A stretch of DNA of 50,780 nt from a virus, in IMG/VR virus record IMGVR_UViG_3300027763_000081, positions 1 to 50,780 of that record; one strand, 5' to 3'. Shown piece after piece: positions 5,898 through 48,691 of this stretch. The notes under the pieces are model-generated. The model was given only the letters and a program-made list of their open reading frames with translations, was not told where the DNA came from and did not search any database. The position numbers were made by a program, and so were the translations under genes. Every line of letters starts with the position of its first letter. Positions within the stretch are counted from its first letter, which is position 1.

Positions 5898-7298
5898 TCA
5901 GTGTTCGTCGTTCTGCGTCCTGCTCAGACTCAGCCCGACGATTCCCCGTTCGTGGCCTTGACTTTCAGGAAGCCGGGTCTGCCTCAGTCCCCAACTGGAC
6001 TCCTGACAGATCCTCACAAACAGCATGTTAGCCGGGACGTGCAGCCGGATTCTATTGGATTCCAGCCAGTCTTCCCACTGCTCCCTCAGGACTTCATTGG
6101 CCACGAACCCATCCTTCCTCTGCACAAACCGCGCATGGAGGAACGAGTCGAACGGGTTGTTCTGCAGGTGGTACAGCCGGACCGCATCTTGAGCTGCAGC
6201 CGGGATGGGCCACCGCTCGTTGATCTCCGACCCAAGCAGCCGCTGCGCACCACGTGCGGCCCACATGGCAATCCCCTGCATCTCGGCCTCCAACTTGTCC
6301 TCGAGGTACAGATCCTCCTTGCCCTCAAAGCTGACCTCAAAGGGCAGTACCAGCATCTTGCCGCTCAGGCCCCTACCCTTATTGGGCAGCACGGGGATCT
6401 CGTTGCTCTGCAACATGGGGGCCGCATTCACAATGACGTTCCGCTGCTGCCGCTGGTGCTTCACATTCACCGTCAGCGGATCCTGGCCTACGATGTTCTT
6501 GAGCACTCGGCAGACCCGTTCACCCGCTTTGGAGTCCACCTCATTAACCTCGTTGATGGCCAGCACCTTGCTGCGCTCCAGGCCATCCATTCCGAACTCA
6601 CCGCTCAGGTCCTCGAGGCTGCTGCTCATAAACGCCGCCCGCCCGATCAGCTTCCGCATAATCGTGGTGATCGTGCCCTTGCCGCCACGGATCTTGCCGT
6701 ACATCAACATCCACCGGGCGTACCGGCGGGTCCCCAGCAGGCAGTACCCCATCCACCTGGACAGCAACTCTGCCCACACCGGATCCCCGTCACCCCACTC
6801 CTTGACGGCCTGCTCCCAACGGGGGCACGCAAACTCCTCCGAGAAGTTGACCGGCAGCACCGCCGGATCGAACCAGTTCTTTGGGCGCTGCATGGTCTTC
6901 CCGGTCTCCGCGTTGAACAGCATGTCCGCAAACGCAATCGTGGTGTGCGGCGAGAAGTCACCCAGCGGCTTGCCAATCCAGCACGGCACGACCTCCGCGT
7001 CAATGCGGACCAGCGCCTCAAGCGCACGGGCAACTCCGTCAATCTTCTGCTTGTCCGGGCTATAACGCTCCAGGGCCACACCATTTCTGGTGGGCTTCTC
7101 CCAGACGGCATCCTCTAGGCAGACCCAGATCAGGTCCTTCAGGCGCTCATCGTCAAGCACGGCCCAGCGCTGTTCGCGCCAGACCCACCAGTCGTTCCGC
7201 CAACGGTACACCCCAGAATCCCGGAACTTCTCTTGCATCACGCGACGTGCAACCTTCGTCGGCTCAACCGAGTTGAGCGGGTCTTGTCTCCAATCCAT
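5898..7298 (-). CDS. SF3-type helicase, phage/plasmid P4 primase-helicase family (466 aa)
   Basis: A 466-residue replicative helicase of the P4/D5 type. The N-terminal 180 residues look like the D5_N helical region; the ATPase part has a Walker A variant GKIRGGKGT (201-209), a Walker B-like KVLAINEVNEVD (244-255) and a downstream NAAPMLQSNEIP ... GRGLSGKMLVLPF stretch (291-320) typical of this family, with an Arg finger-like R309. No archaeo-eukaryotic-type or TOPRIM primase domain is visible, so priming must come from elsewhere. The unwinding helicase would work with the family A polymerase at 46811-48691. ATG 7298 has GAGGAGACAAC upstream. It is the first gene of the leftward arm, behind the promoter at 7339-7367. 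Confidence 0.85.
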   Translation of the reverse strand: MDWRQDPLNSVEPTKVARRVMQEKFRDSGVYRWRNDWWVWREQRWAVLDDERLKDLIWVCLEDAVWEKPTRNGVALERYSPDKQKIDGVARALEALVRIDAEVVPCWIGKPLGDFSPHTTIAFADMLFNAETGKTMQRPKNWFDPAVLPVNFSEEFACPRWEQAVKEWGDGDPVWAELLSRWMGYCLLGTRRYARWMLMYGKIRGGKGTITTIMRKLIGRAAFMSSSLEDLSGEFGMDGLERSKVLAINEVNEVDSKAGERVCRVLKNIVGQDPLTVNVKHQRQQRNVIVNAAPMLQSNEIPVLPNKGRGLSGKMLVLPFEVSFEGKEDLYLEDKLEAEMQGIAMWAARGAQRLLGSEINERWPIPAAAQDAVRLYHLQNNPFDSFLHARFVQRKDGFVANEVLREQWEDWLESNRIRLHVPANMLFVRICQESSWGLRQTRLPESQGHERGIVGLSLSRTQNDEH

Positions 7299-7338
7299 GT
7301 TGTCTCCTCTGAGAAATGAGCTCGAAGCCCAGCCCTAC

Positions 7339-7367
7339 ATTGTACCATGATCCACGACACCCTACAA
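7339..7367 (-). promoter_or_regulatory. Leftward sigma70-like promoter for the helicase arm
   Basis: On the leftward strand TTGTAG (7367-7362) and TACAAT (7344-7339) are separated by exactly 17 bases, and TGG directly before TACAAT gives an extended -10 element. Transcription would start near 7332 and reach the helicase ATG about 34 bases on. It overlaps the ribosome-binding site of the divergent gene at 7377. The short divergent gap means both arms may be controlled together. Confidence 0.6.
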
Positions 7368-7376
7368 GGAGATCGC

Positions 7377-8432
7377 ATGGGAAACGACCCAAATCAATGG
7401 CTTCGTGATCGCGGACTCGGACAGTTCATCCCGCCGCAAGTCTCATCCATGTCGCAGGCTGGAAACGCAGGCATGAACGCCAAGCGTGCCGGTTACTACG
7501 CCAACACTCCGTCCAAGCGATACATCCCCGACAACCTCAAGCAGGACATCGACAAGCCTGGCTTTGACGCGCACGCCAAGAACCCCGCTGGAATGACGCC
7601 CGAGCAGAAGTCAGCATGGATGGCGCAGCACGGCGACTCCGCAATGCCGAGTTCCACATACACCGGCAAGCCCGCAAAGAAGCAGGCAGCCGCTGTTGTT
7701 CCTCCTCCCGGTGTCACTCTGGCACAGCACCTCGACGGCATCAAGCCAGCACCAGTTGCAAAGCCCACGGTTACCGTTGGGTCGCCAGTTCTTGGTGGCA
7801 AGACACCTCCCGGCGTTTCTGCAATTCTTGGAGCCGCTACCGGAGCTACCGGATCGGCTCCTAAGTTCCCGACGGCACCTTCATATCAGGGTCCAACCGA
7901 AAAAGACATTCAGGCTGGCCGCAAGGCAGCACAAGATCGCATCGCTGGTTACGAACGACTAGCAAAGGACTGGACGGATGCTTCTCCTGAAGAACGGGAA
8001 GCAATTACCAGAGGCATGTCCTTCAATGAAACTGCAGATTTTGCCGAGGCAATTAAGGATGAAAGCCGACGTCGTTACGGCGAAGCCGTAGACAAGGCTC
8101 ACTCGCAACGCGATGCTGCTGATGTGGTGATGCGGGCAACGCAAGAAGCTCGTTCACAGCGTGACCGCGAGTTCAGAAAGCGCATGATTGAGCGTGATGC
8201 CGAAATTACAAGGCTTTCCGGTGAAGCCCGCGCCGCATATCGAAACTCAGAACAAAACACTCGCGACCGCCAGTTTGAATCAGACAAGAGGTTTAGTGAA
8301 GCAATGGCCGAATCGCCGCTGTCTAAGGTGTTCAGCCGTAAGAACCCGTTTGGTGCTGGCGTCAGCAAACTTGGCCGCTGGTTCTCATCGCGTCCTGGTA
8401 TGCAGGACATCCTCCCGTACACGACCGAATGA
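7377..8432 (+). CDS. Hypothetical late protein, Pro/Ala-rich with charged C-terminal half (351 aa)
   Basis: First gene of the rightward arm. ATG 7377 is chosen over ATG 7347 because AAGGAG lies 5-6 bases before it. The 351-residue protein has a flexible Pro/Ala/Gly/Lys-rich first half (about 70-180) and a strongly charged helical second half (about 190-300, rich in Arg, Glu, Asp), likely coiled coil. No family recognised. It overlaps the next gene by ATGA. Position at the head of the virion operon, and style shared with the 993-, 462- and 295-residue proteins, suggest a structural or virion-internal role, but this is inference. Confidence 0.65.
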   Translation: MGNDPNQWLRDRGLGQFIPPQVSSMSQAGNAGMNAKRAGYYANTPSKRYIPDNLKQDIDKPGFDAHAKNPAGMTPEQKSAWMAQHGDSAMPSSTYTGKPAKKQAAAVVPPPGVTLAQHLDGIKPAPVAKPTVTVGSPVLGGKTPPGVSAILGAATGATGSAPKFPTAPSYQGPTEKDIQAGRKAAQDRIAGYERLAKDWTDASPEEREAITRGMSFNETADFAEAIKDESRRRYGEAVDKAHSQRDAADVVMRATQEARSQRDREFRKRMIERDAEITRLSGEARAAYRNSEQNTRDRQFESDKRFSEAMAESPLSKVFSRKNPFGAGVSKLGRWFSSRPGMQDILPYTTE

Positions 8433-12343: not shown

Positions 12344-12656
12344 GGCGTTCGCTCGCATTGCTGCAATGGATGGATTGCAGGCCGCACGTGGCGGCGCGCC
12401 AATCCTGTTCTCGATGGGCATCAATGATCCAGCTACCTGGTGGGGCGAACTCTCGGAACTTGGCAACGCAATCATCGAGCGCATCAAGACGAACAACCAC
12501 GTCTTCCACAAGCGCTGGGTTGATGCGGCTACCGAGATTGTTGCGGTTGCACCGGCTGCCGATGAGCCCGCGTTTCTTGCTGCTTGCATCCTTCGCATGG
12601 CCGCTGTCGAGCTGGTTGCGATCAAGGGGATGCAGCGCAAGATGGTGGGTCTGTGA
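12264..12656 (+). CDS. Small protein directly before large terminase (130 aa); alternative small terminase candidate
   Basis: GTG 12264 is chosen because a perfect AGGAGG lies 7 bases upstream; an upstream ATG at 12204 has no such site. The 130-residue protein is mostly helical and ends in a GTGA overlap with the large terminase gene, so the two should be translationally coupled. Coupling to the large subunit makes it a candidate small terminase subunit, competing with the preceding frame. No DNA-binding motif is evident by eye. Confidence 0.6.
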   Translation: MQSQKTQPELSPPSTCHLADMDPRIGKAFARIAAMDGLQAARGGAPILFSMGINDPATWWGELSELGNAIIERIKTNNHVFHKRWVDAATEIVAVAPAADEPAFLAACILRMAAVELVAIKGMQRKMVGL

Positions 12657-14620
12657 ACCCGGTTGCAATCCCAATGCCGGAAGAGGGCAACGCCATGTGG
12701 CCGTTGCCTGCCGACTACCTCACGCTTACGCCTGAGGGTCAGCGGCTTGCTCGCGTCAACGCGTGCTCGCAGTGGCTTGTCCCCACCAACGACTTGCGGG
12801 TGAAGGCAACGCGGTTTGCAGGCAGCGTCAATTTCTTTGACCAGTGGTATCTCCATCCCGACTGGGAGGAGGACTTCAACCCGTACTTCTACGACGATGA
12901 TCCAGTTGATCCGCCAGCAGGACACTTTGCTATCTATCGGATGTGGGCCATGTCCCCCCGATCTATTGCCATTGCACCGCGTGGATACGCCAAGAGCAAT
13001 TGCTTCAGAAAGACTGCGCTCCTCCAGATGCTTACGCGTCCGGCTTTCTCCTTTATCTACGCTACGAGCAGCGTTGACAATGCTGAGCAGACGAGCCAGA
13101 TCCTGAAGACGCAGTTCATCGGCAACAAGCGGATCTTTGACGACATTGCGCCTGAGTTCCCCGATGGACGCATCACGCCAAAGCGCGGCGAAGCATCCTT
13201 CGGAGTCGAGCTCATGTACCTGAACAACGGTTCGTGGTTCCGTGCCATGAGTGCCGAGAGCCGCCAGCGTGGTGGTCGCCCGCGCGTGTACGCGCTTGAT
13301 GACCCCGAGTATGACCCCAAGGCTTCGACCAGCATGTCCATCCTTCGGTCGTACATGGAACGGCTGCTGTTCAAGGTCGTGATGCCGATGGTGACACGGC
13401 GTGATACCAGTGTGCGGTGGCTGGCGACGTTCGTGAGTCGGCGGCACTACGCGTGGCACGCGATGATGACGGAGTTGCTGGCGGATGGCAGCAAGGTGGC
13501 AAAGGATCCCCGCTTTGACCAGTGGTCCCGGTTAATCCTGCGGTCCGAGTACACGGACGAAGATGGAACGCAGCAAAGCGCGTGGCCGTCCATGTGGCCC
13601 ATCAACCGGAAGGTTCGGGATGCCAAGGAGAGTCTGAAGGGCCTCATTACCCTTGAAGACATCAAGGAGATGATCGGCACCCACAACTACAACGCCGAAT
13701 ACCTGGCGCAACCCGGTGAGTCGGAAGAGGTCTACTTCGGCAACATCACCCAGGAGCGCCACGGCTGGTGGCTTGAGAACCCGGATGCCGAGAGCGATAC
13801 GGATCCACATCTCTCGAAGTCAACCTTCTGCTGGAAGAACAAGACGGGCGACACCGAGCGGATGCTGTTGCCTGAGTTCCTGTCGGGCCGGGTCAAGTTG
13901 TTTGCAACCGTAGACACCTCGTACACCTCAACCACGGATTCTGACTTCAAGGTCTGCACGGTCATGGCTTACGACCCGGTGGACGCGGTCCTGTTTGTGC
14001 TGGACACGTGGGGCGGTCAGGTCCGCGAGCCGGTTCTTATTGAGCACGCTTTCCGTCTGGCCATGAAGTGGCACGTGCCAGCCATCCACGTCGAGGTAGT
14101 CCGGCAGTCGTTCAGCCTGTACGCGGCCATGGAGTCGATGGTCAGGCAGCGGGCAGACCAGATCACGGGCATGACGCCGCCCAAGGTCATGAAGCTGAAC
14201 CCCGGCGTCATGGACAAGACTTCCAAGATCAGCGCCCTGAACTACCGGTTTGAGCACGGGCTCATCAAGCTCCCCACCTGGCGGCGAGGCTTGAACCCTT
14301 GGCGGATGCTGTTTGAGCAGATCGAGCAGTTCAACCCCGACGCTGAGAACGGCGGTCTGGCCCACGACGACTTCATCGACACGGTGGCCATGAGCATGTT
14401 TGTGGTCCGTGGACGTATGGAACGGGCTGTTGCGGTGGCAGACGAGGACAGCCGGTTGGTCATTGAAAACCCCCTTGAGGAGATCGGGGAGGGCAACTAT
14501 GTCGACAAGAAGTACGGGTTGAACATTGCGGACGCCATGAATTTCAATAACATCTCGGTTGAGGATGCCCTTCGTATCATGAAGGAACCACCCACCAAGA
14601 GCGGAGGATCGCGTGTCTGA
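12653..14620 (+). CDS. terL: Terminase large subunit (packaging ATPase/nuclease, 655 aa)
   Basis: The DNA-packaging motor protein. I start it at GTG 12653, in the GTGA overlap. The ATPase part shows a Walker A variant PRGYAKS (109-115), a nearby ATSS coupling stretch, and a Walker B-like RVYALDDPEYDP where LDD is followed by the catalytic Glu. The nuclease part shows FATVDTSY (first acidic residue of an RNase H-like fold) and HDDFIDTVAMSMF near the C-terminus with the final acidic cluster. Length of 655 residues is slightly above the usual range. It binds the portal, cuts genome ends and drives DNA into the head. Followed, with 8 bases of overlap, by an 87-residue gene and then the portal gene. 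Confidence 0.92.
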   Translation: MNPVAIPMPEEGNAMWPLPADYLTLTPEGQRLARVNACSQWLVPTNDLRVKATRFAGSVNFFDQWYLHPDWEEDFNPYFYDDDPVDPPAGHFAIYRMWAMSPRSIAIAPRGYAKSNCFRKTALLQMLTRPAFSFIYATSSVDNAEQTSQILKTQFIGNKRIFDDIAPEFPDGRITPKRGEASFGVELMYLNNGSWFRAMSAESRQRGGRPRVYALDDPEYDPKASTSMSILRSYMERLLFKVVMPMVTRRDTSVRWLATFVSRRHYAWHAMMTELLADGSKVAKDPRFDQWSRLILRSEYTDEDGTQQSAWPSMWPINRKVRDAKESLKGLITLEDIKEMIGTHNYNAEYLAQPGESEEVYFGNITQERHGWWLENPDAESDTDPHLSKSTFCWKNKTGDTERMLLPEFLSGRVKLFATVDTSYTSTTDSDFKVCTVMAYDPVDAVLFVLDTWGGQVREPVLIEHAFRLAMKWHVPAIHVEVVRQSFSLYAAMESMVRQRADQITGMTPPKVMKLNPGVMDKTSKISALNYRFEHGLIKLPTWRRGLNPWRMLFEQIEQFNPDAENGGLAHDDFIDTVAMSMFVVRGRMERAVAVADEDSRLVIENPLEEIGEGNYVDKKYGLNIADAMNFNNISVEDALRIMKEPPTKSGGSRV

Positions 14621-17793: not shown

Positions 17794-19455
17794 ATGTCTG
17801 TTAACTCACCCTTTTACGCAACTGCGGGTTCTCTGTTTGATAAGCAGAGCGACCGCATCCAGGAGGTCCTGAACAAGAACATTGAGATGTTCTTGCCGGC
17901 CCTCGATCCCGCCTGGCGTGACACCTTTGTCACCAGCCAGGGTGTTGGTCCTGCTTCGCTCATCGGTCGTGACCTCAAGATCCTCAAGATCTACATGGGT
18001 TCGATGGCCGGTGTGCTTGACATGGCCGACACTCGTGACAACTTCGTGCTGTACGGCGACAAGACCGTGACGGACATTGGTGCAAAGCTGCAGCAGCAGA
18101 CGAACACCAACACCTGGCCGGACGCCACCGATGGCGCGATGGCTCGTCCGTACCGTCTCGGCGTCGGCATGAAGGCCATGGTTTCCAACCTGTACATGTC
18201 GCTTGGCGAGATGACTGCGGAAGCCACCCCGGCCTTCATCGGCGAAGTGATCGGTCCGAAGCTTGAGGGTCATGCGCGCCTGATGGCGCACACCCTCTGC
18301 AACTACTGGTACCTCGCGGAGAACAACAGCTACCAGCTCGGTAGCTGGACGAACGCCAACAGCGCGGACTACCAGTACTCGACCGACTTCTTTACCACCT
18401 CGACCGTTCCCACGTGGACCAACGCCGGTACCGCTGTGACCAACAACACGGTTCGTGCGCTGAAGGTTCTGGTGGCCGAGAAGAGCATTGACCGTTTTGC
18501 AGTGGGCATGCGCGTCGATATCTTCGACAACAGCTCGCCGCAGATCCGTCTCAATGACTCTCAGTCCGCTGCCGCTTCCCAGACTTCCGCAACGCGAGTC
18601 GCGGCTTGGGTTGCTGCGGTTGACGAAGTCAAGGGTCAGGTCACCATTGCCTTTGGCGCTGGTCTGAACCTGGGCGCAACCACCACCTACTACGTCTACT
18701 TTGCGAATGCTCGCAAGCTGAATAGTGGTGCGGCTGCTTCTGCCAACGGTTACGGCTTTGCCGGTATCAACAGCTGGCTCCGTTCCGGTGCTGCTGGTGC
18801 TTCCGACGGTAGCCAGTACCTGCTTGGTGGCGACCGTGACACGTCGAACCAGATCGACGTGAACGTGCACCCCGAGTTCCGTTCCTACTTCAAGACCTCG
18901 GTCGGTACCCTGACTGAGCACAAGCTCCGTCAGTACCTCCGCGGCTTCCACCGTGCGAAGGAGAAGTACGGCCAGTACATCGACTGCCTCATTGCGAGCG
19001 ACGGTGTGTGGCTGAACTACGAAGCCCAGAAGATCGGCCAGTACATGCTGGACCGCACCAACCGCCTGTCGAGCCTCACCAACGAGGGTTCGCAGGAGGG
19101 CTTCAAGTTTTCCTTCGACGGACGCACGTACAGCGGCTACACCTCGAATTACATCGAGGACGGCACGGTGTACGGCATCCGCAAGGGTGGCGCCAACTGG
19201 AAGAAGTACGTTCCGCCGTCCCCCAAGGGGACCCAGAAGTTCGACAAGGCGGAAGGCTTCATCCCCTTCGAGTTCGTCGGCCCGTCGCTGGGCTACGCGG
19301 ACGTCAAGGTGCCGATCCAGCGCGTGTCTGGCAACAGCACGTTGGTGACGGAAGGCATGCAGATGCCGGGCATGCTGCGTATGCAGCTCGTCCCGGATCA
19401 GCCGGCCGGTCTGAAGCTCACCGGTGTTACCACCGACCGCCAGTACGGCGAGTAA
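17794..19455 (+). CDS. Major capsid protein (553 aa)
   Basis: A 553-residue protein with the position (after portal and scaffold) and the isolated, well terminated gene structure of a major capsid protein. AAGGAGGCGG lies upstream of ATG 17794, and a strong terminator follows the stop. The first 180 residues and the last 200 look conserved and globular. A Ser/Ala/Thr-rich, beta-like segment (about 185-330) may be an insertion domain projecting from the shell, since it lies between two globular regions and the protein is larger than a minimal HK97-fold protein. The N-terminus shows no obvious cleavage site. Confidence 0.85.
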   Translation: MSVNSPFYATAGSLFDKQSDRIQEVLNKNIEMFLPALDPAWRDTFVTSQGVGPASLIGRDLKILKIYMGSMAGVLDMADTRDNFVLYGDKTVTDIGAKLQQQTNTNTWPDATDGAMARPYRLGVGMKAMVSNLYMSLGEMTAEATPAFIGEVIGPKLEGHARLMAHTLCNYWYLAENNSYQLGSWTNANSADYQYSTDFFTTSTVPTWTNAGTAVTNNTVRALKVLVAEKSIDRFAVGMRVDIFDNSSPQIRLNDSQSAAASQTSATRVAAWVAAVDEVKGQVTIAFGAGLNLGATTTYYVYFANARKLNSGAAASANGYGFAGINSWLRSGAAGASDGSQYLLGGDRDTSNQIDVNVHPEFRSYFKTSVGTLTEHKLRQYLRGFHRAKEKYGQYIDCLIASDGVWLNYEAQKIGQYMLDRTNRLSSLTNEGSQEGFKFSFDGRTYSGYTSNYIEDGTVYGIRKGGANWKKYVPPSPKGTQKFDKAEGFIPFEFVGPSLGYADVKVPIQRVSGNSTLVTEGMQMPGMLRMQLVPDQPAGLKLTGVTTDRQYGE

Positions 19456-19494: not shown

Positions 19495-19535
19495 CATCCC
19501 CCTGCATCTTCGGGTGCAGGGGGATGTGTATTTTG
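19495..19535 (+). terminator. Strong rho-independent terminator after the capsid gene
   Basis: CATCCCCCTGCA (19495-19506) pairs perfectly with TGCAGGGGGATG (19515-19526) around an 8-base loop, followed by TGTATTTTGG. This is the best terminator in the rightward arm and the only one seen inside it. It may cap the abundant capsid message while letting some transcripts read on into the tail genes. A weaker promoter-like TATCAT lies at 19546-19551 beyond it. Confidence 0.85.
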
Positions 19536-19557: not shown

Positions 19558-20001
19558 ATGGCCGACAAAGAAAACCCGTTGTTCAACGCCCCGAAGACTG
19601 AAGGTGCCAAGCCTGCGCCCCAGATGCCGCCGTCAGCCGGTGGTCGCAAGTGCGGTTGCGTTGAGAAGTTGATGAGCGCCCAGCAAGCGCTTCGTCTCCA
19701 GCATTGGATGACCAAGTCGCACGCCGAGCACAAGGCTCTTGGCAAGATCTACGAGGGCTTGGACGAACTCGTTGATAGTTTTGTGGAGACGCTGATCGGA
19801 GCCAAGGGACGCGAAGTCCTTTCCGGCATCTCCTCGCTTTCCGTTGGTGGGGATGTGCAGAAGATCCTGTCGGACTTTGAGAGCACGCTGCGCAATGAGA
19901 TCCCGAAGGACGTTGGTGACAAGGAAACTGCGCTCCTAAACATCCGCGATGAGATGCTTGCGCTTCTCCAGCGCACCAAGTACCTCCTGACCCAGAGCTG
20001 A
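19558..20001 (+). CDS. Dps/ferritin-like protein (147 aa)
   Basis: A 147-residue helical protein whose middle matches the Dps/ferritin-like pattern: H49-W50, then H55 and H58, Y65, D69, D73 and E77 in LQHW...SHAEHKALGKIYEGLDELVDSFVE. In Dps proteins the HW, Asp and Glu residues form the iron-oxidising site and the protein shell binds or protects DNA. The N-terminal 30 residues are Pro/Lys-rich and flexible, followed by a CGC pair (32-34). A third and fourth helix follow after residue 100. It is the first gene beyond the capsid terminator and heads a run of tiny basic proteins. The ribosome-binding site is weak. Dps-like fold is likely; an iron or DNA role in the virion is inference. Confidence 0.65.
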   Translation: MADKENPLFNAPKTEGAKPAPQMPPSAGGRKCGCVEKLMSAQQALRLQHWMTKSHAEHKALGKIYEGLDELVDSFVETLIGAKGREVLSGISSLSVGGDVQKILSDFESTLRNEIPKDVGDKETALLNIRDEMLALLQRTKYLLTQS

Positions 20002-20003
20002 CC

Positions 20004-20252
20004 ATGGCAAAGAAGTCTTTCCAGTTCAAGGCAAAGCACAAGAACCCGCTCGGTGGCTTGAGCGAATTGGGCCGCAAGGCTTACAATCGCGCCACTGGCG
20101 GACATCTTCAGCGCCCGCAGCCTGAAGGTGGTTCCCGCAAGAAGTCGTTCTGCGCCCGTATGCGCGGGATGAAAAAGAAGCTGACTAGCAGCAAGACGGC
20201 GAACGATCCCAACTCGCGCATCAACAAGAGCCTGCGCGCCTGGAAGTGCTGA
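20004..20252 (+). CDS. Small basic conserved phage protein, DUF6321-like (82 aa)
   Basis: An 82-residue, Lys/Arg-rich protein. Its features GGLSELGRKAYNRATGG (17-33), a Ser-rich RKKSFCARMRGMK (45-57), KTANDPNSRINKSL (64-77) and a final W-K-C are, from memory, those of a widespread small phage family (DUF6321) of unknown function, usually coded near head or neck genes. The high positive charge suggests DNA or RNA contact. It begins 3 bases after the Dps-like gene and overlaps the next ATG by one base (TGATG). Confidence 0.75.
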   Translation: MAKKSFQFKAKHKNPLGGLSELGRKAYNRATGGHLQRPQPEGGSRKKSFCARMRGMKKKLTSSKTANDPNSRINKSLRAWKC

Positions 20253-20386
20253 TGAAACGCAATCCGCTCAACTCGCTGGTAGGGAACATCAACAAGCGTC
20301 GCAAGCTTGGGATCTCGCGCCCCAAGTCCAAGTCAACCGTCAGCGCGAAGTCTTACGCTGCCATGAAGAGCGGCTGGAAGAAGTGA
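20252..20386 (+). CDS. Tiny basic protein A, first paralogue (44 aa)
   Basis: A 44-residue frame, from ATG 20252 in a TGATG overlap. It is very rich in Lys/Arg and carries the core SLVGNINKR, KLGISRPKSKSTV and a C-terminal aromatic-basic W-K-K. A second gene at 20974-21096 encodes nearly the same core, with many synonymous base differences, which shows selection on the protein. Could bind packaged DNA like a protamine or be a small head or tail accessory part. Confidence 0.7.
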   Translation: MKRNPLNSLVGNINKRRKLGISRPKSKSTVSAKSYAAMKSGWKK

Positions 20387-20388
20387 CC

Positions 20389-20457
20389 ATGAAGAAGATG
20401 ATGAAGAAGGAGTCCTACAAGTCTCCTATGGCCGCGCGGAAGCGATGGGGGTGCTGA
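20389..20457 (+). CDS. Candidate 22-residue basic peptide
   Basis: ATG 20389, two bases after the previous stop; 22 residues, 9 of them Lys or Arg, ending in RKRWGC before TGA. The frame fits exactly between its neighbours and shares the basic, aromatic-basic style of the cassette. It has no strong ribosome-binding site of its own and would rely on coupling. Confidence 0.4.
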   Translation: MKKMMKKESYKSPMAARKRWGC

Positions 20458-20458
20458 C

Positions 20459-20971
20459 GTGGATTCGATGAAGGGAATCATCGCCGCGATAAGGAACGAG
20501 TCCGGTCGCCAATGGATGGACATTGCCAAGGGCGTGAATCCTGCTCCTCGCGATTCATCTGTCGAGCAATCGTTTGGATTTAAAGTTCGCAAGGAAAACG
20601 ATAAAGAGCGTCAATTCTTCAATGGCAGACCGGACGTAGCCGGATACGCTGCTGAAGACAATTCGATTGTTGTCAATCCGTACAACGAACATATGCGGGA
20701 TCCAAACAAACGGCGTGGGCTTATCAACATTGAGGGCGCACGTTTGTACATTCGGTCGCGAAACTACAAGGCGGCAGACCTCCCTGATTTGACGAAGGAT
20801 CAGCGCAAGTTCCTAATGGAACTTCCTTCGCCATCCGGTAAAGACAAGGGATACTCAACCGATGAACTTGATCTTCGCGCAACTGCGCTATCTCGTTACA
20901 TCGGCGGCGACACAAGTTTCCCGAAGTGGAGCAACGAGCAGATCGCGTTCGCAAAATCTCTCATAGAGTGA
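20459..20971 (+). CDS. Hypothetical protein inserted between duplicated tiny genes (170 aa)
   Basis: A 170-residue protein from GTG 20459 (ATG 20468 is a possible start). It is not basic like its neighbours and uses more A/T at third positions than the flanking genes. It contains VAGYAAEDNSIVVNPYNEHM, a Lys/Tyr-rich middle and a helical C-terminus. No catalytic motif recognised. It lies exactly between the two copies of the tiny basic gene A, which suggests later insertion. A DNA-packaging or lysis role cannot be supported from sequence. Confidence 0.65.
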   Translation: MDSMKGIIAAIRNESGRQWMDIAKGVNPAPRDSSVEQSFGFKVRKENDKERQFFNGRPDVAGYAAEDNSIVVNPYNEHMRDPNKRRGLINIEGARLYIRSRNYKAADLPDLTKDQRKFLMELPSPSGKDKGYSTDELDLRATALSRYIGGDTSFPKWSNEQIAFAKSLIE

Positions 20972-20973
20972 AC

Positions 20974-21096
20974 ATGGCGAAGAACTCGCTGGTTGGGAAC
21001 ATCAACAAGCGCAAAAAGCTTGGGATCAGCAGACCAAAGTCAAAGTCCACTGTGGACGCGAAGCAGTACGCAAAAATGAAACGAGGTTGGAAATGA
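20974..21096 (+). CDS. Tiny basic protein A, second paralogue (40 aa)
   Basis: ATG 20974, two bases after the previous stop. 40 residues with the same SLVGNINKR and KLGISRPKSKSTV core as 20252-20386, differing mainly at residues 13-14 and near the C-terminus. About 80 percent of aligned residues are identical by eye. Its stop overlaps the next ATG (ATGA at 21093). Confidence 0.7.
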   Translation: MAKNSLVGNINKRKKLGISRPKSKSTVDAKQYAKMKRGWK

Positions 21097-21257
21097 AGAT
21101 GTCTAAGGACCCCATCAAGTCAGTCAAAGACAAGATTTACAAGGCCGAAAAGGGCAAGGGCTTTGGCGGCGGCATGGGCAAGAAGTGCTCGTGCGGCAAG
21201 GCCGGATGCAACTGCGGCAAGAAGATGAGTGGCCTCTTTGGCAAGAAGGCGTACTGA
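21093..21257 (+). CDS. Tiny basic Cys-cluster protein (54 aa)
   Basis: 54 residues from ATG 21093 (a second in-frame ATG lies at 21099). It contains KKCSCGKAGCNCGKK, a CxC-x4-CxC cluster between Lys/Gly-rich stretches, giving a compact four-Cys site that could bind zinc or form disulfides, and ends in GLFGKKAY. Together with the CGC pair of the Dps-like protein and the two Cys of the next gene, it makes cysteine a recurring feature of this cassette. No family recognised. Confidence 0.65.
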   Translation: MKMSKDPIKSVKDKIYKAEKGKGFGGGMGKKCSCGKAGCNCGKKMSGLFGKKAY

Positions 21258-21258
21258 C

Positions 21259-21417
21259 GTGGCGAAGGGATGGATCGGCAAGGTCGTGAAGGACATCAAG
21301 CGGCGTGGCACCGAAGGTGTGTGCACCGGCGCAAAGATGGGTGGCCCCACCTGCCCGCCTGGTAGCAAGCGGTACAACCTGGCCAAGACGTTCAAGAAAA
21401 TGGGCAAGAACCGATGA
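21259..21417 (+). CDS. Tiny basic protein with two Cys (52 aa)
   Basis: GTG 21259, one base after the previous stop, gives 52 residues; an upstream in-frame GTG at 21229 would run through the preceding gene. The sequence is basic, with a VCTGAKMGGPTCPPGS centre (two Cys 10 residues apart) and a Lys-rich C-terminal helix (YNLAKTFKKMGKNR). The GGPTCPPGSKRYNLAKTF stretch looks like that of a small conserved phage family, but I cannot name it. Its stop overlaps the next ATG (ATGA). Confidence 0.65.
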   Translation: MAKGWIGKVVKDIKRRGTEGVCTGAKMGGPTCPPGSKRYNLAKTFKKMGKNR

Positions 21418-21944
21418 CCGAGATTGAGATCACGTTTGACCCGAAGTACGAAGCCGCGTGCGCTGGTCTTGCCATGTATGGCGACCACGAGATCATGCCG
21501 GACGGCGACTGGATCCGTTTTGCGCGCCGCGTCACCGGCATCCCGGAGCTGTTTCTGTATTTCCATCGACGCACTGGCAACTTTGTGCTGGCCAAGTGGC
21601 TGTTCAAGCCGGACGTGTGCCTTGAGCTTGAGACGTTTCCTGTTGCTCCGGACCGTGGTGGCTGGATGTCTGCCGATGAATTGAAGGCCCGTTGCAAGCC
21701 GGTAGACGACACCGTGCGCGCTGTGAAGGACAAGATGCGTCAGGCCAGCAGCGAACGCAAGTCCGCCATGGATGACGACGCTACCCAGCGCGCCGAGGCC
21801 GTGAAGATGCTGCGCCGCAAGGGCAACGAACGTGAGGCTTACAAGATCGAGAACGGCATGACGCCGTGGGTTGGCGCCCGCAAGGGTGGCGAATCGTACG
21901 CTCGCACGTGCGAGACTCTGCGCCAGATGGCAAAGGCAAACTGA
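21414..21944 (+). CDS. Hypothetical protein between head cassette and tail adaptor (176 aa)
   Basis: A 176-residue protein. The first half alternates aromatic and charged residues (likely alpha/beta: GDWIRFARRVTGIPELFLYFHRR), and the second half is a charged helix with several Arg/Glu/Lys. The ATG lies in an ATGA overlap. Its place between the basic cassette and the tube-like protein suggests a neck or head-completion function, which remains inference. Confidence 0.65.
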   Translation: MTEIEITFDPKYEAACAGLAMYGDHEIMPDGDWIRFARRVTGIPELFLYFHRRTGNFVLAKWLFKPDVCLELETFPVAPDRGGWMSADELKARCKPVDDTVRAVKDKMRQASSERKSAMDDDATQRAEAVKMLRRKGNEREAYKIENGMTPWVGARKGGESYARTCETLRQMAKAN

Positions 21945-23103: not shown

Positions 23104-24125
23104 TGGCAATTCCTGGACAGGAAGACCAGGAGGGTGGCGAACAGTGGGACGCGCTAAGCGCGATGAACCAGTTCCCAAACCCAAACAAGTTCCTGCTGCG
23201 GAACATCTTTGGCACGCAGAACCTTGGTTGGTCGTCTGGGCTTGGTGCCGCACCGTTCTCGTACAACTTCAGCACGGCAACGGTTCCTGCCACCAACTTT
23301 GGTATCCCTTGGGTTCCCGGTCCGCAGATGGGTTGGAGCCCTACCAATATTTCGATTATCAACTCTGGTGGCGGTTTTGGTGACAACCCAATCAACGGCA
23401 CAAATGGCACCAACGGGACCAATGGGTCTGGCGGTGCAGTGTCTGTCCGGTACTACACCGGAAGCGGTGACGTGACCGTCAACCCATGTAACGAGATCTA
23501 CTTTGATTTTCCTGCTACGTATGTCTTTGACGATGGCAACGGCACGGTCACCGTGCAGTCGCCCAGCGGTTCTGTTGGAACTCTGACTGCTACTGCTCCG
23601 CTGACGGGCGGCGGAAACATGGCGTCAAACCGGACTGTTGGCCTGAGCTACGACAGCACGGATTCGTTCCAGTTGTCTGCTGGAACCACGCTGCAGCTGA
23701 AGACGATTACGGTGACTGCGCCGTCGGATGCCGGTGCAGTGACCGCAATTACGACCGACAACTTTGGCCGAGTCACGTCATACACCAGGCAGTTCCACGG
23801 GGTCTACAAGATCACAAGTTCGACATTTGTGAGTCCGGGGCACTGGGAATACGCCATGATTGAGCAGTCCACACTTGGTGGAACGTGGCCGTTCTTCCAG
23901 AGTGGCAGCAACACGATCACGGCGTACAACCTGCTTGAGACCGCCAACACCTCATCAACCGCCTACGGGCTTCCTGCGGTTGGCACGGCGGCTCCGATTG
24001 AGCTGACAAGCCAGGAAGACTACAAGGTGTACCCGGTCCCCACCAACATGATGGTGGAAGTGTGGAAGTGGGGCAGCAGGTACTTCTTCTCGGCACCCAA
24101 CAAGATTGACGGCGTCTGCCCATGA
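23103..24125 (+). CDS. Tail fibre or tip-like protein (340 aa)
   Basis: TAATG overlap with the previous gene. The 340 residues have an N-terminal part with aromatic residues, three repeats of N-G-T (around 99-107) forming a collagen-like or flexible turn, and a Thr/Ser/Gly-rich beta section with TLTATAPLTGGGNMASNRTVGLSY, a segment typical of phage fibre shafts. The C-terminal part (after 230) is a compact, aromatic-rich region that could be a receptor-binding tip. This suggests a host-contact function, not proven. Confidence 0.6.
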   Translation: MAIPGQEDQEGGEQWDALSAMNQFPNPNKFLLRNIFGTQNLGWSSGLGAAPFSYNFSTATVPATNFGIPWVPGPQMGWSPTNISIINSGGGFGDNPINGTNGTNGTNGSGGAVSVRYYTGSGDVTVNPCNEIYFDFPATYVFDDGNGTVTVQSPSGSVGTLTATAPLTGGGNMASNRTVGLSYDSTDSFQLSAGTTLQLKTITVTAPSDAGAVTAITTDNFGRVTSYTRQFHGVYKITSSTFVSPGHWEYAMIEQSTLGGTWPFFQSGSNTITAYNLLETANTSSTAYGLPAVGTAAPIELTSQEDYKVYPVPTNMMVEVWKWGSRYFFSAPNKIDGVCP

Positions 24126-25507
24126 TGAACCTGCTTGTCCGGAGGAAGTGCTGCTGCACCGGTGCGCCAGTCAAGCAGTGGACTGCTTCTGTGTGTACGC
24201 CTTCTGGTTCTTGCGTCCGCACGTGCGCTGGATCTATTGCAACGTGCATTCTGACAATTACGTTCTGTGATTCGTACCGCCAGACGATTGGTCTGCCTGA
24301 TGCGCTGGATCCGACGAAGTGCTACATCATGGTTCTTGGTGGTTGCTTGTACGTGGTGAACGACTTCACCTATGTCTCTACGTGCGACTCAACGCCAACA
24401 TCCACACGGAACATCGGCACGCTTTACGGAATCTATGACAAACCGGTGGGGCTGGGTTGTGACACGCTGTGTGCATCGCTTCAGTCAACTCACACGTATG
24501 GCCCGGAAGTCTGGATTGGCGGCATTGCGTGCGGCACGGATATTGTGTTGACGTACCCGTGGACGAACGCTAGATGCAGCAATGTTGGTGGGGAAGAGTG
24601 CAGTGCAACGCCATTCGACCCTTGTCCAAAAAAGGTTGGAACCATTGCAACCACGCACAACCTTGGCAGTTTTCCTGTTGGATTTGCCTGGCCCCCAACC
24701 CAGTGCTCTCCGGAAATTGCAAATTGCGTTGACTGCATCTATCAGAATTCAAATCCACAATCTAATGCTTGGTATTTCAACGAACAGATTTCAAGCAATT
24801 ATTGTGGATCATCAAATCCATTTGGTATTTGCGTAACACCATCTTGTTCTGTAAGTGAATATTTTCAATGTGCAATCAACCAAACAGATTCTTCTTTGTG
24901 GACGTACTCGTTTGGATTTTCAATCACGCGTAGTTGCGTTTACCCGTTTGGTGATGGCACTGGATGGGTAGCTGGTGGTCCAGGGACAAACTACATCAGC
25001 ATTGACAACTGCTTGTTTGGATTGAATACTGGTTGTCGGTCATTGGTTCTTGCTAACAAAATCAATAATGTTCTTAGCCAGGCATCGCAGGTTGGATCAA
25101 CTACGTTTACTGCAACCGGAACCAACGCATGGATTGGCCAGGCTTGCAACGCTATTCCCGGTGCTGAATGTGATTCTTGTGTGTCTGGAATTTATGAATG
25201 GGATGGCCCGTACTACACCAACAGTGGTAGAACTGCTACTTGGTATGCGGCTCCAGTCGCAACTTACATTTTTAATTCAACTCTAAGTACAAGAAATTAC
25301 TCTTATAACTATCCTGGAGGATGCGGTTGCACCGGAAGTGACTTTGGTGGAATTATTGGTTATTACGTTTCTACCAATCAGGCCAGCGGAATTATTTCCG
25401 GTCCAGTGATTGAGTATGGATCGTCGTTGACTGGTGGGTCATTTGCAATGACTGATGATCCCGGTGCTTCCAACCCTCCTTGCTGCCCAGCGCCCACCAT
25501 GTCATGA
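24122..25507 (+). CDS. Extremely cysteine-rich virion-region protein (461 aa)
   Basis: 461 residues with about 34 cysteines by hand count, including KCCC at the start and PCC at the end, spread over the whole chain and mixed with Thr, Ser, Tyr and Gly. The rest is polar and beta-like, with no long helices and no catalytic motif. It lies between a fibre-like gene and the large tail protein, so a structural, perhaps surface-exposed fibre or appendage role is likely. Tail proteins this rich in Cys are unusual, since assembly happens in the reducing cytoplasm. The second half of the gene (about 24700-25450) is clearly more A/T-rich than its neighbours, hinting at transfer. ATGA overlap at both ends. 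Confidence 0.7.
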   Translation: MMNLLVRRKCCCTGAPVKQWTASVCTPSGSCVRTCAGSIATCILTITFCDSYRQTIGLPDALDPTKCYIMVLGGCLYVVNDFTYVSTCDSTPTSTRNIGTLYGIYDKPVGLGCDTLCASLQSTHTYGPEVWIGGIACGTDIVLTYPWTNARCSNVGGEECSATPFDPCPKKVGTIATTHNLGSFPVGFAWPPTQCSPEIANCVDCIYQNSNPQSNAWYFNEQISSNYCGSSNPFGICVTPSCSVSEYFQCAINQTDSSLWTYSFGFSITRSCVYPFGDGTGWVAGGPGTNYISIDNCLFGLNTGCRSLVLANKINNVLSQASQVGSTTFTATGTNAWIGQACNAIPGAECDSCVSGIYEWDGPYYTNSGRTATWYAAPVATYIFNSTLSTRNYSYNYPGGCGCTGSDFGGIIGYYVSTNQASGIISGPVIEYGSSLTGGSFAMTDDPGASNPPCCPAPTMS

Positions 25508-41440: not shown

Positions 41441-41845
41441 TTAATCGAGGAAGGAGGGGGCTTTCATTCCACCGGGGAGGACCATCCTCTCGCCTCCCAT
41501 GTAGACCGCCGGTGCTTCCGGCATTTGATTTGGTTCATCGAACTGCGAGAATACCGCCTCGTCCGCAGACTCCTGGCTGACCGGCTGCACCTCACGGGCT
41601 GCAGGTCGGTAGCCAGGGATGTTGACGACCATCTTCTTCTCGAACGTGATCCCGATATCTTCGCACCACTCGGCAAACACGCACATGGAGATGTTGCACT
41701 TGTGCTCGTTGTTGAAGATGTTGAGGAGACTAGAGCGGGACGCAATGTCGTCATGCTCCGCAACGATCTTTGCGATCTTCGGCTGGATCACCTGCTCGAG
41801 GATCTCCTGCTGGAAGTAGGTGAACGGGTTAACTCTGCTGCTCAT
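41441..41845 (-). CDS. Hypothetical protein in recombination module (134 aa)
   Basis: 134 residues, ATG 41845 in an ATGA overlap with the nuclease gene. A helical N-terminal half contains IAEHDDIASRSSLLNIFN and HKCNISMCVFAEWCEDIGIT, which could be a helix-turn-helix, and the C-terminal 50 residues are Pro/Glu/Gln-rich and probably flexible. No family recognised. Linked tightly to the nuclease and Sak4-like genes. Confidence 0.6.
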   Translation of the reverse strand: MSSRVNPFTYFQQEILEQVIQPKIAKIVAEHDDIASRSSLLNIFNNEHKCNISMCVFAEWCEDIGITFEKKMVVNIPGYRPAAREVQPVSQESADEAVFSQFDEPNQMPEAPAVYMGGERMVLPGGMKAPSFLD

Positions 41846-43065
41846 GCCATGTCTCCTTCGGGGACTGCGTCGTCTCGGTCACGCTGCACAAAGTTCTCCT
41901 GACGCACGATGTCCGGCCACACAACAGGGTCGGTCATCATGAACGGCAGGTACACGCTCGGCATGCCAGTGCCTTGGATCGGGTCGCCCATTTCGAAGTT
42001 GTCCGGATAGGGTTCGCGGTTCGCATATGAACGGCAAAACTTGAGTCGCTCATGGTACTGCGTGATCAGCTTCTCATCAAGCAAATGTGTCGCGGAAGTG
42101 TAAGAAATGTTGATGCACGGATTGGTGAGTCGCTCGGGCTCCATATGTAGATACTCACCCGTGCCCGTATACCACTCGTAGCATCGCTGCTCGTAGATGG
42201 CGGGATCCGGTTCACCAACAAACACCTTCTCATTGCGCGGTTCACCCTTGCGCGGACCAGACTTGAGCGGACTGGTGTCAAGCGTGAACGGGCGGTCCTT
42301 CATGCCGAACTCGATGGTCGGCTTCTGTACCGCAATGTGGATCACGCCACCCAGGCGCTCTGCGTTGTACTCTGCAAGATCCAGCTTGTTCATCACGTGG
42401 AAGTAGTGCTGGGTCTGGAACTCGATGGGGCACGCCTGCAGTCGCTCGGTTGCGCTGCTGCTTGTGGTCTTGAAGTCAACGATCCACAAGTCCTTGGGCT
42501 TGTTCGGGAACTTGATGAGCGCATCGGGCTGGATGACGCAGTCTTGGAAGCGGAGCATCGGCTCCTGCGCCACGATGTCCACGAAGTCAACCCAACCACC
42601 CAGCCTGCCGGTGGGGCCTTCGCCGTCGAGCTTGAACTGGACGGTCATAGAGGCAGAGAACCAGGCCCACGCAGTGCGGGCGTCCTTCTCCTCGCGCTCC
42701 TGGATCTCGCGGATGAGTTCGGCGGACTGGCCGGCAGTGCGACCGTAGGCACGGAGTTCCTGCAGGCGCAGGTCCATGACGCTCTCGTACATCTCGAGGG
42801 CGGCTTCCTTGTTCTTGCGCAGCGAGTAGGCGGCGAAGGCAAGGTGGGCCCACGATCCACGGGACAGGGCCGCGCTGTAGCGGGAGGCCTTGACCAGCCC
42901 GAGGCGGCGGCTCAGGTACCACGAGAACGGGCACGAGCGGAGCGAGCGGTAGTCGGACGAGCGGATGCCCACGTTGCGGGGTGCAATGCCGTGGTAGGAA
43001 AGCCATTCACGGGCATCCTGTCCACCGCTGGTGGGGACCTTGGGGGTTTCGGTTTCTGGTGGCAT
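41842..43065 (-). CDS. RecB-like PD-(D/E)XK exonuclease (407 aa)
   Basis: 407 residues. The N-terminal SLRSCPFSWYLSRRLGL (41-57) and the GSWAHLAFAAY (70-80, with H74) segments are those seen in RecB/Cas4-like exonucleases; D181 in QPDALIKF, DFKT (197-200) and QTQHYFHVM (217-225) give the metal-binding D...D-x-K core and the later Q/Y. Such nucleases resect DNA ends for the annealing ATPase encoded two genes downstream. Start ATG 43065 has CAGGAAAAACAC upstream. A strong hairpin lies 22 bases before this start. Confidence 0.8.
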   Translation of the reverse strand: MPPETETPKVPTSGGQDAREWLSYHGIAPRNVGIRSSDYRSLRSCPFSWYLSRRLGLVKASRYSAALSRGSWAHLAFAAYSLRKNKEAALEMYESVMDLRLQELRAYGRTAGQSAELIREIQEREEKDARTAWAWFSASMTVQFKLDGEGPTGRLGGWVDFVDIVAQEPMLRFQDCVIQPDALIKFPNKPKDLWIVDFKTTSSSATERLQACPIEFQTQHYFHVMNKLDLAEYNAERLGGVIHIAVQKPTIEFGMKDRPFTLDTSPLKSGPRKGEPRNEKVFVGEPDPAIYEQRCYEWYTGTGEYLHMEPERLTNPCINISYTSATHLLDEKLITQYHERLKFCRSYANREPYPDNFEMGDPIQGTGMPSVYLPFMMTDPVVWPDIVRQENFVQRDRDDAVPEGDMA

Positions 43066-46318: not shown

Positions 46319-46811
46319 GGTGTTCCTGAGTGATGAGCCACCTGGCTGCCCACTCACCCGCTGCCCTGCGCTGGCCTGCTGTGCTGGTGGGGAGGACGAT
46401 CAGACCGATGGCGAACTCCTGCAGGATACGCATAAGGGAGTCAATCGCAAGACCCGGGTGCGGCTTTCCCGGCTTGATTATGGGTGTCCCCACCAGCCCT
46501 TCAAGGAGGAGCAGCGGGCGAGCGGTCTCGTCCCGGAGGCGGCGGCAGCACTCGGCGAACCGGCGTCGGCCGTCAGGGGTGAGGAGATTCTGGGTGATCT
46601 CGTCAAGAGAACCCTTGCGCTCGACAACCGCTGCTCCCCCATCAAGGGCGTAGTCGCCCGTCTTCATCGTACGCTTCTGGGTACGAAGGCGTACCGTAAT
46701 ACCCGACTGATGGCACGGATCCTTGTTGGGGTCAAGGCAGACGATGTACTCGGGGAATGTGAACGGCTTCTTCTCCCGCTCGTCAACAAGGATGGTGTAC
46801 TCCCGCTTCAC
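46128..46811 (-). CDS. ERCC4-type nuclease (227 aa)
   Basis: 227 residues from GTG 46811, one base overlap with the polymerase stop. The N-terminal part carries the ERCC4 nuclease motif: VDERE (9-13), GDY (52-54) and VERKGSLDE (63-71, the ERKx3D core). The domain seems complete by about residue 160. The last 64 codons (46128-46318) overlap the 165-residue structural gene in a different frame and read as Gly/His/Arg-rich, so the real C-terminus may be earlier and the extra part may be a long overlap or a sequence error. The enzyme cuts branched or flap DNA and fits the replication and recombination genes around it. Confidence 0.75.
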   Translation of the reverse strand: MKREYTILVDEREKKPFTFPEYIVCLDPNKDPCHQSGITVRLRTQKRTMKTGDYALDGGAAVVERKGSLDEITQNLLTPDGRRRFAECCRRLRDETARPLLLLEGLVGTPIIKPGKPHPGLAIDSLMRILQEFAIGLIVLPTSTAGQRRAAGEWAARWLITQEHHVIRHTHDRREELPPGILHGGHGRNGSRQEADCNQAGLGNGQHGVRRKPELPEAEDLQQREHG

Positions 46812-48691
46812 TAGCCAGGAGTATATGGGTCAACCGGATCCGACAACTTGAAGGTGAACGGAATGTCCCGACCGAACATCTCTTGGCAGGTGTCGAAGAT
46901 GCACCGCTGGATGGTGTGGTGCGTATCGTCGTAGGTATTGGACGTCTGGAATACCAGCTCGTCGTGCAGCTGCAGGGACATCTGGCAACTGTCCAGAAGC
47001 AGGGACATGTTGGTCTGGAGCATGGACATGAACACGGCGGCGTGACCCTGGACCATGAACGACGTGGTGTCGTGCATAGTTTTGGCGGCGCTGTGCATAT
47101 ATGCAATGCCGGCATGGTCCAGATACAGATTGCCGTTCGTACCTGCCTGGTGCCACATGGTCCTCGTGTTCCTGTAGTCAGTCCACTGAGTGAAGACCGG
47201 GAGTTCCGCGATCTCGTCCTTCGTGATGAGGTTGGCGGACGTGGCGATGGCTGTGCGCCATGCCTTGTCGACACCGCCGCCGTTGACCCCCACCAGCAGG
47301 GCGATCTTGGAGATGCTGCGGTTGCTGCCGAGGCTGGAGTACGGGTCGGGCGAGAAGGCGAAGTCGTACATCCGGCGGTCACGGGACAGGGCTGCTGCGA
47401 TGCGGAGCTCGAAGGCAGTCATGTCCATGTGGTACAGGCTGTCGCTGGTGGGGACCATGAGACTGCGCAGTTCCTTGGTCCAAGTCTGTGCGGCTGGTCG
47501 GCGGGCGGACAGGCGGGCGGACTGGGTGCCGCCGTCGTCCGTGGGTGCGCCGTACCACGAGGGGTAGCAGATCCGCTTGTTGCCCACGGTGACACAGCCG
47601 GAGTTGACGGTGATGCCTTGGCCGCGGCTGATCTTGTCGGCCAGGATCTTGCGGCACTCCTGCTCCATGGATTCGTACTTCGAGCAAGCATTCAACTTTA
47701 TCATCAGGTGTACGTTCATGTCGTACTCGAAGTCGTACTTGATGATTGCCGACAGGACGTTCCGATTCTCCCGGTTGTTGCGCACGCTGCGCTTCTTGTC
47801 GGAGTACTCAAGTAGTCCAGCATCATGCAGGTTGTACATGATGCGGTCGGCTTGGGTCACCGCGTCGTCGATGAGCTTGCCCTGCGTAGTGCCGCTGCCC
47901 TCGCCGGACAGGATGACGCCCATGGTAAGGAGGTCTGCCTCGTGCTTCTCGTAAGCGAGACGGCAGTCGTCCGCGTAGTCGAGTAGCTTGTCCTTCTGGA
48001 ATGCCTGGCCGGTGAGCGACAGGTTCTCGATGTTCCAGAGGCGGTCGGAGTGGAACATGATGGAGGATGGCGTGAGCTTCTGGCCACGCTCGTCGGCAAT
48101 GCGCTGGCACAGGGCGCGTGCTGCGAGCACGGCGTTGTGTGTGTCCTCCGCGTTGTACTTGATGGCGTCGGCGCACATCGGGAACTTGAACTTCCCGTCC
48201 TTGAGTGTGCGCTCGTAGGCGAACGCGCCAAGGGCTGGGCCAAGCGCTTTGAGCGAGCGCTCCTTGCGTGCACCGGAGTGGATCCACGAGAGGATCACGG
48301 TGTCCACAAGGGTGGGCTTTGGGTTACTGCTGAGGATGTAGTCCAGCGACTTGAACTGCCGCAGGTACATGAGGTCGTACACGATGTTCGAGCCGACGAT
48401 GGTGTCGGCCTTGCGCAGCATGTCCTCGACGACCATGATGTCGTTGCTGCACATGTCGATGACCGCTGATTCCCCAGGCTCCCAGCTGGTGGGGTCCGAC
48501 GGTTCGCCTTCGACGATGGTGATTGCGCATTGGGGAACCATGCGGCAGGGCAGGATGGTGCCGAGGTCAACCTTCGTGGAGAGTCCGGGATGGAAGACAG
48601 TCTGGTCGGGGCATGGTGCGCCCTTGTTCTCGAAGAACTCGAACGCGCCGTAGGTTTCGATGTCGAGCGAGATGATGAGTGGCTTGCTCAT
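46811..48691 (-). CDS. DNA polymerase, family A with 3'-5' exonuclease domain (626 aa)
   Basis: 626 residues, start ATG 48691 in an ATGA overlap with the upstream gene. Proofreading exonuclease: D10-I-E12, D106 (SNIVYDL) and Y179-x3-D183. Polymerase: motif A DMTAFELR (423-430), motif B R458-SIS-K462-IALL-VGVN-G471, motif C LHDE (575-578). In motif B, E. coli Pol I Phe762 is Leu466 here and Tyr766 is Asn470, both unusual and affecting sugar choice and fidelity in the family. The thumb and palm appear otherwise complete. With the SF3 helicase and SSB-like proteins it should form the replisome. It is coupled upstream to a chain of small genes and downstream to the ERCC4 nuclease. Confidence 0.9.
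   Translation of the reverse strand: MSKPLIISLDIETYGAFEFFENKGAPCPDQTVFHPGLSTKVDLGTILPCRMVPQCAITIVEGEPSDPTSWEPGESAVIDMCSNDIMVVEDMLRKADTIVGSNIVYDLMYLRQFKSLDYILSSNPKPTLVDTVILSWIHSGARKERSLKALGPALGAFAYERTLKDGKFKFPMCADAIKYNAEDTHNAVLAARALCQRIADERGQKLTPSSIMFHSDRLWNIENLSLTGQAFQKDKLLDYADDCRLAYEKHEADLLTMGVILSGEGSGTTQGKLIDDAVTQADRIMYNLHDAGLLEYSDKKRSVRNNRENRNVLSAIIKYDFEYDMNVHLMIKLNACSKYESMEQECRKILADKISRGQGITVNSGCVTVGNKRICYPSWYGAPTDDGGTQSARLSARRPAAQTWTKELRSLMVPTSDSLYHMDMTAFELRIAAALSRDRRMYDFAFSPDPYSSLGSNRSISKIALLVGVNGGGVDKAWRTAIATSANLITKDEIAELPVFTQWTDYRNTRTMWHQAGTNGNLYLDHAGIAYMHSAAKTMHDTTSFMVQGHAAVFMSMLQTNMSLLLDSCQMSLQLHDELVFQTSNTYDDTHHTIQRCIFDTCQEMFGRDIPFTFKLSDPVDPYTPG

Follow-up and report, generated by a model that had tools for sequence, protein, structure and literature searches.

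Between its candidate major capsid gene and a gene of the probable connector region, the virus carries a tightly packed run of small genes that encodes a Dps-like protein of the DUF5856 family and several strongly basic proteins, and members of the same few families recur together beside head genes in other phages. We tentatively interpret this run as a late, head-linked modular cassette that combines a mini-ferritin-like protein with exchangeable basic proteins, which are probably virion-associated. A preliminary description of the region had proposed a DNA-condensing set made of a Dps-like shell protein and protamine-like peptides. Its observation is partly confirmed by the results presented below, and its interpretation is partly supported. 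The window, meaning the whole stretch of DNA that was analysed, is an entire IMG/VR virus record of 50,780 bases.

Gene layout and borders of the cassette

The terminase large subunit gene (12584-14620) lies 5' of portal-like, acidic scaffold-like and capsid-like genes, which are named from their position and size. The scaffold-like protein has 300 aa and a pI of 4.5. No match to the 553-aa capsid candidate was found in Pfam and PHROG searches, and its homologues (49-83% identity) occupy the equivalent place in relatives. The terminator reported earlier behind the capsid gene is indeed a strong hairpin, and an identical one is present in relative L002. Eight frames come after it, with junctions that range from -4 to +2 bases, and the last of these frames overlaps the start of the P176 gene at 21414, and every frame previously reported between 19558 and 21417 was found. 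The features are as follows.

17794 to 19455, plus strand: candidate major capsid protein, 553 aa, upstream border of the slot, after the terminase, portal-like and acidic scaffold-like genes
19495 to 19526, plus strand: terminator-like hairpin 3' of the capsid gene, 14 pairs, 9 of them G-C, with the tail TGTATTTT
19558 to 20001, plus strand: DUF5856 / RI.-1 family, Dps-like predicted four-helix protein, 147 aa (PF19174, phrog_858, AF2 model, Foldseek, PDB profile search)
20004 to 20252, plus strand: DUF6321 protein, 82 aa, pI 11.4, two conserved Cys (PF19846, dN/dS, 54-row alignment)
20252 to 20386, plus strand: phrog_25774 peptide copy a, 44 aa, in the left cassette fragment (PHROG match; 97% identity with the copy in L266 across 38 aa)
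20389 to 20457, plus strand: 22-aa frame, read as a recombination scar where two cassettes are joined at ATGGC (DNA comparison with L266 and L267)
20459 to 20971, plus strand: 170-aa gene, in the right cassette fragment (homologues in L266 and L267, 82-87% identical, with the same neighbours)
20974 to 21096, plus strand: phrog_25774 peptide copy b, 40 aa (PHROG match; 97% identical to L001)
21093 to 21257, plus strand: 54-aa basic protein with a CSCGKAGCNC cluster (dN/dS; seen in close relatives only)
21259 to 21417, plus strand: 52-aa basic protein with a Cys pair (dN/dS; at least 440 relatives among 599 IMG/VR stretches)
21414 to 21944, plus strand: P176, downstream border gene, probable connector region by position (follows the slot in relatives)

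Elsewhere in the window, a 461-aa frame 3' of the tail-region genes (24122-25507) is unusually Cys-rich for a protein of a phage structural block. The minus strand carries genes for a member of the Uracil-DNA glycosylase superfamily (52-747), a PD-(D/E)XK nuclease (41842-43065) and a divergent family A DNA polymerase (46811-48790).

A recombination junction within the cassette

Comparison of the window (20389-20457) with two further virus contigs, L266 (2644-2754) and L267 (455-688), identifies the 22-aa frame as a recombination junction of two cassette fragments. Both contigs have the gene order DUF6321 variant, 170-aa gene and phrog_25774, and in L266 a 37-aa gene with the start MKKMMKESYKSPMA comes next. 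The left part of the frame matches the start of this 37-aa gene as far as ATGGC, with the exception of one codon. From the same ATGGC onward, the right part matches L267, where these bases are the last nine codons of the DUF6321 variant. We therefore reject the frame as a gene, since it consists of the ends of two unrelated small genes fused in frame. The fragments were brought together either when two cassettes crossed over or when a cassette was duplicated in tandem and part of it was then deleted, and the frame records, at the level of single bases, how cassettes are shuffled between phages.

One phrog_25774 copy comes from each side of the junction. Thus, the duplicated tiny gene of the preliminary description does exist as two similar genes of 40 and 44 aa, but it is better read as two cassette fragments that have been joined. 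Its count of six small basic genes needs a similar adjustment: the frames exist, but the 22-aa one is the junction, and the 170-aa gene had been overlooked. Pfam and PHROG searches assigned the 170-aa gene to no family.

Recurrence beside head genes

The slot between homologous capsid and P176 genes holds DUF6321 in 20 contigs, including the window. Most of these were retrieved by using DUF6321, DUF5856 or the 52-aa protein as the seed, and so it is the companions of a seed, and not its own presence, that serve as evidence. The usual company consists of some of the following: phrog_25774, a 124-aa Cys protein, basic peptides of 25 and 57 aa, and the 52-aa Cys-pair protein. The order of the genes varies among the 20 contigs, and DUF5856 is present in 11 of them. 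The search for the same neighbourhood in other phages that had been suggested earlier thus gives a positive result for co-occurrence of the modules. Small frames in the slot are also strongly biased in charge, with 113 of 125 having a pI of at least 9.5 versus 14 of 71 control genes, where the 125 frames come from a mechanical tiling, are not independent and include a few doubtful ones, and the controls are annotated small genes located elsewhere in phages, taken from three other phages. A P-value for this contrast should accordingly not be read at face value.

Other lineages carry related arrangements. In L196 (3864-6983) and L199 (5010-7140), which probably belong to a crAss-like lineage, the structural block contains a run of small genes for basic proteins together with the 52-aa protein, DUF6321, a gene for a structural protein, and DUF5856, and in L199 a head-protein gene lies upstream of the run. 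In T7-like marine phages, DUF6321, phrog_25774 or the 124-aa family adjoins the capsid gene, and in cyanomyoviruses DUF6321 is located between the terminase subunits or near them. Recurrence within the main clade owes partly to shared ancestry, and the other lineages represent more independent cases.

Two neighbouring observations concern individual genes. In phage P-SCSP1u (L088 4234-4410), a 58-aa gene 3' of DUF6321 matches phrog_11180 and phrog_28131 in their N-terminal part, and DUF6321 makes up the C-terminal part of both; hence genes that are neighbours in P-SCSP1u appear to be fused in other phages. In relative L008, a slot gene of 254 aa (6978-7742) carries an FHAS...GRGFYAF pattern that by eye faintly resembles ADP-ribosyltransferases, and Pfam and PADLOC searches with this gene gave no match.

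Such variability would also be expected of a tolerant accessory slot beside head genes that gathers small mobile genes, whose products act separately, if at all. Order and contents differ between close relatives, and cassette fragments have been joined through recombination. Furthermore, 71 of 80 DUF5856 loci lack small-gene neighbours of this kind, and DUF6321 and the 52-aa family are often found without DUF5856. However, a merely permissive site does not readily explain the strong bias toward small basic genes, or the repeated presence of the same few families, several of which show strong purifying selection. We consider this explanation rather unlikely.

The Dps-like protein

The 147-aa protein matches PF19174 (DUF5856) at 67.2 bits (cut-off 34.6), and phrog_858 with an E-value of 1e-18, a PHROG that is labelled 'starvation-inducible transcriptional regulator'. 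Its AF2 model, a monomer built on 62 sequences with two rows from annotated phage records excluded, predicts a four-helix bundle (helices 33-51, 55-83, 100-119 and 124-145) with a core pLDDT above 90. Among the top 50 Foldseek hits in the PDB, nearly all are Dps and bacterioferritin structures (probability up to 0.98, TM about 0.5), at weak E-values of 0.16 upward, and there was no match at E ≤ 0.001. Among predicted viral structures, Foldseek recovered other phage and giant-virus proteins, some of which are deposited as 'DpsA' or 'DNA-binding protein'. When the DUF5856 family profile was compared with PDB sequences, HP-NAP ranked first (E 0.001) and other Dps proteins came next.

In the HP-NAP profile alignment, H49, H58, D73 and E77 line up with the ferroxidase ligands of Dps, and these four residues are invariant across 64 sequences; their assignment as ligands comes from this alignment and the monomer model. 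The H/H/Y/D/E pattern on which the preliminary description had based its Dps/ferritin-like assignment is thus real and conserved in alignments, and the assignment is now backed by the predicted fold and the remote profile match as well. Because of the fold searches, the HP-NAP match and the aligned invariant residues, we call the protein Dps-like. We stop short of classing it as a Dps, since the Pfam Ferritin profile gave no match (at E ≤ 1 only DUF5856 and a chance FliD_N appeared) and the spacing from the first to the second His is three residues shorter in DUF5856 than in Dps. A PADLOC search that also covered the small proteins returned only one weak partial HamA match, for this protein.

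The protein itself is not basic (pI 6.3). Its N-terminal tail (residues 1-31) has a net charge of about +2 and is not conserved, since L008 lacks it and L005 has an acidic one. No conserved Lys-rich DNA-binding tail was found in a comparison of relatives that included these two, and such a tail is a feature of some Dps only. These features lend no support to the idea that the Dps-like protein binds DNA.

T4 RI.-1 is a true member of the DUF5856 family (PF19174 E 5e-33, phrog_858 E 9e-55, own profile E 1e-25), which raises the prospect that the window's protein acts on host physiology or lysis timing, in the way that RI.-1 serves as an accessory factor in lysis inhibition, and that the small proteins are unrelated to it. 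According to PMC6832632, Golec et al. 2010 found that over-expression of rI.-1 slightly delays the collapse of lysis inhibition. This effect fits such a role, but it is slight and comes from over-expression, and it neither supports nor excludes a function in iron handling at the head. Phage RaK2 carries the gene without the T holin or RI (PMC3622015). Moreover, T4 rI.-1 is encoded with rI and tk outside the head block and has no basic mini-proteins adjoining it in the annotated region, whereas the window's gene sits directly behind the capsid gene. A role in lysis timing for the protein studied here thus seems quite improbable, and the T4 location also means that the general role of the family need not be linked to the head.

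The small basic proteins

Short frames by themselves prove nothing, since 124 ORFs of at least 20 aa overlap a 7.5-kb stretch. Family searches with the small cassette proteins gave only DUF6321 and phrog_25774: the 82-aa protein matches PF19846 (DUF6321) at 74.6 bits (cut-off 28.5), and both phrog_25774 copies match over the full short proteins (E 6e-20 and 8e-17). The dN/dS values are 0.04-0.08 for DUF6321, 0.14-0.18 for the phrog_25774 peptides (0.18 for copy b versus L001), 0.16-0.21 for the 54-aa protein with the CxC cluster and 0.25-0.37 for the 52-aa protein with the Cys pair. Given this purifying selection (0.04-0.37 overall) and the recurrent co-location in other viruses, the small genes are real beyond chance, and the tiny genes that have homologues are real coding genes. 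The Cys clusters noted earlier are likewise real. The CxC family is found in close relatives only. The Cys-pair family is very common among environmental virus contigs (L177-L256; 67-83% identity in the best 80, contigs of up to 203 kb), and no convincing match to it was found among 50,697 phage records.

DUF6321 is the most conserved of the small proteins and exceeds even the capsid protein; between L097 and the window, identity is 85% for DUF6321 and 55% for the capsid protein. Recent horizontal transfer is ruled out as the source of this high identity by four-fold degenerate sites that are near saturation at 68-85% protein identity, and so the conservation reflects constraint. A 54-row alignment contains invariant Cys, Trp, Gly and Arg residues. 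The DUF6321 model is helical and moderately confident (pLDDT 81, pTM 0.50). No match was found by Foldseek with this model, or by PDB sequence searches with DUF6321 and with the 52-aa protein.

Evidence from virions is available for one distant DUF6321-domain protein. In cyanophage S-CREM2, gp137 is encoded between the terminase genes and its C-terminal end is a DUF6321 domain (E 3e-12; phrog_10346). Table 3 of PMC10665884 lists gp137 in the virion proteome, on the basis of 4 unique peptides that cover 4.1% of it, although these peptides need not fall in the DUF6321 domain and contamination is possible. For the packaging suggested in the preliminary description, this detection is a single, indirect piece of evidence. 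In the cryo-EM paper on P-SCSP1u, the corresponding small genes go unmentioned and no protein is assigned to them, which means that the small proteins there are absent, disordered or not symmetric. We found no link to the crAss001 cargo proteins, and the crAss001 paper contains no mention of Dps or ferritin.

A protamine-like class was judged by Arg-dominated, low-complexity, disordered sequence. The cassette proteins do not belong to it: they contain 25-36% K/R, far below protamines, DUF6321 has strictly conserved Cys, Trp and Gly, and its predicted ordered, helical structure does not fit protamine-like disorder. A DNA-condensing set, in which a Dps shell protein and protamine-like peptides compact the genome, could draw on the strongly basic nature of the small proteins (pI 9.9-12.0), on the ability of bacterial Dps to condense DNA and on the virion detection of one DUF6321 protein, but it is very unlikely given the Dps-like protein with its pI of 6.3 and its unconserved tail, the low K/R content, invariant residues and a predicted fold that point to specific contacts, and a constraint on DUF6321 that goes beyond what charge neutralisation needs.

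Proposed function of the cassette

In the head-linked cassette that we tentatively favour, the genes would be expressed late. The DUF5856 protein would most likely form a Dps-type oligomer that binds and oxidises Fe(II) at the predicted H49, H58, D73 and E77 sites, as judged from alignment and modelling. Oxidation or sequestration of iron might then lessen iron-driven (Fenton) damage to phage DNA during head filling. The small basic proteins, made beside the capsid protein, would probably reach the inside or the surface of the head through charge attraction, with the acidic scaffold, DNA or the capsid interior as possible partners, and would serve there as small structured adaptors and not as protamines. 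Modules would be exchanged between phages by recombination, so that each phage has its own set. That the parts function jointly is a guess from their co-location and charge.

A bolder version is a long shot: a protein of the mini-ferritin type, along with structured mini-proteins that are basic and bind metal, might be loaded into the head as a kit and delivered with the genome. If true, this kit would control iron and protect or organise the incoming DNA, and its modules would be swapped between phage lineages.

Comparison with known systems

The 147-aa protein shares with Dps and mini-ferritins (HP-NAP, Dlp-1, MrgA and E. coli Dps) a predicted four-helix bundle with aligned ferroxidase residues, and the spacings from the second His to the Asp (15) and from the Asp to the Glu (4) are equal. 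Unlike Dps, DUF5856 has a core of about 115 aa, a distance of 9 instead of 12 residues between the first and second His, two acidic positions, D131 and E132, that are conserved in its last helix, and no conserved basic tail.

Dps-type genes of phages are known. The available text of PMC8008677 describes DPS and Mn-catalase genes in 'Gratiaviridae' and other gut phages, with a proposed role against iron or oxidants, and so the single components seen here are not new. Compared by description, these DPS proteins are Dps-type and phage-borne like the 147-aa protein, but a basic mini-protein cassette is not described in that text. Our literature search found no papers naming DUF5856 or DUF6321, and no description of the modular head-linked combination.

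Cyanophage DUF6321 proteins (T4-GC119; S-CREM2 gp137) contain the same domain, 45-76% identical, usually as the C-terminal domain of a larger protein, whereas that of the window is a stand-alone protein of 82 aa. The internal head proteins of T4 are small and basic, are loaded into the head and are injected with the DNA; for the cassette peptides they offer a working analogy only. Several uncharacterised mini-protein families that are common in environmental phages are parts of one exchangeable module beside head genes. Because DUF6321 is conserved above the capsid protein and one DUF6321 protein is reported in a virion proteome, the cassette genes merit experiments and not just the label 'hypothetical'.

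T4 RI.-1 (MobD.6; L091 320-706) is 30% identical to the 147-aa protein, with HF where the window has HW. Known only for its slight effect on lysis inhibition, RI.-1 keeps all four of the Dps-type ferroxidase residues (H, H, D and E). The present analysis therefore offers a structural hypothesis for RI.-1 and hundreds of phage homologues, namely a Dps-like fold with an intact set of putative ferroxidase ligands.
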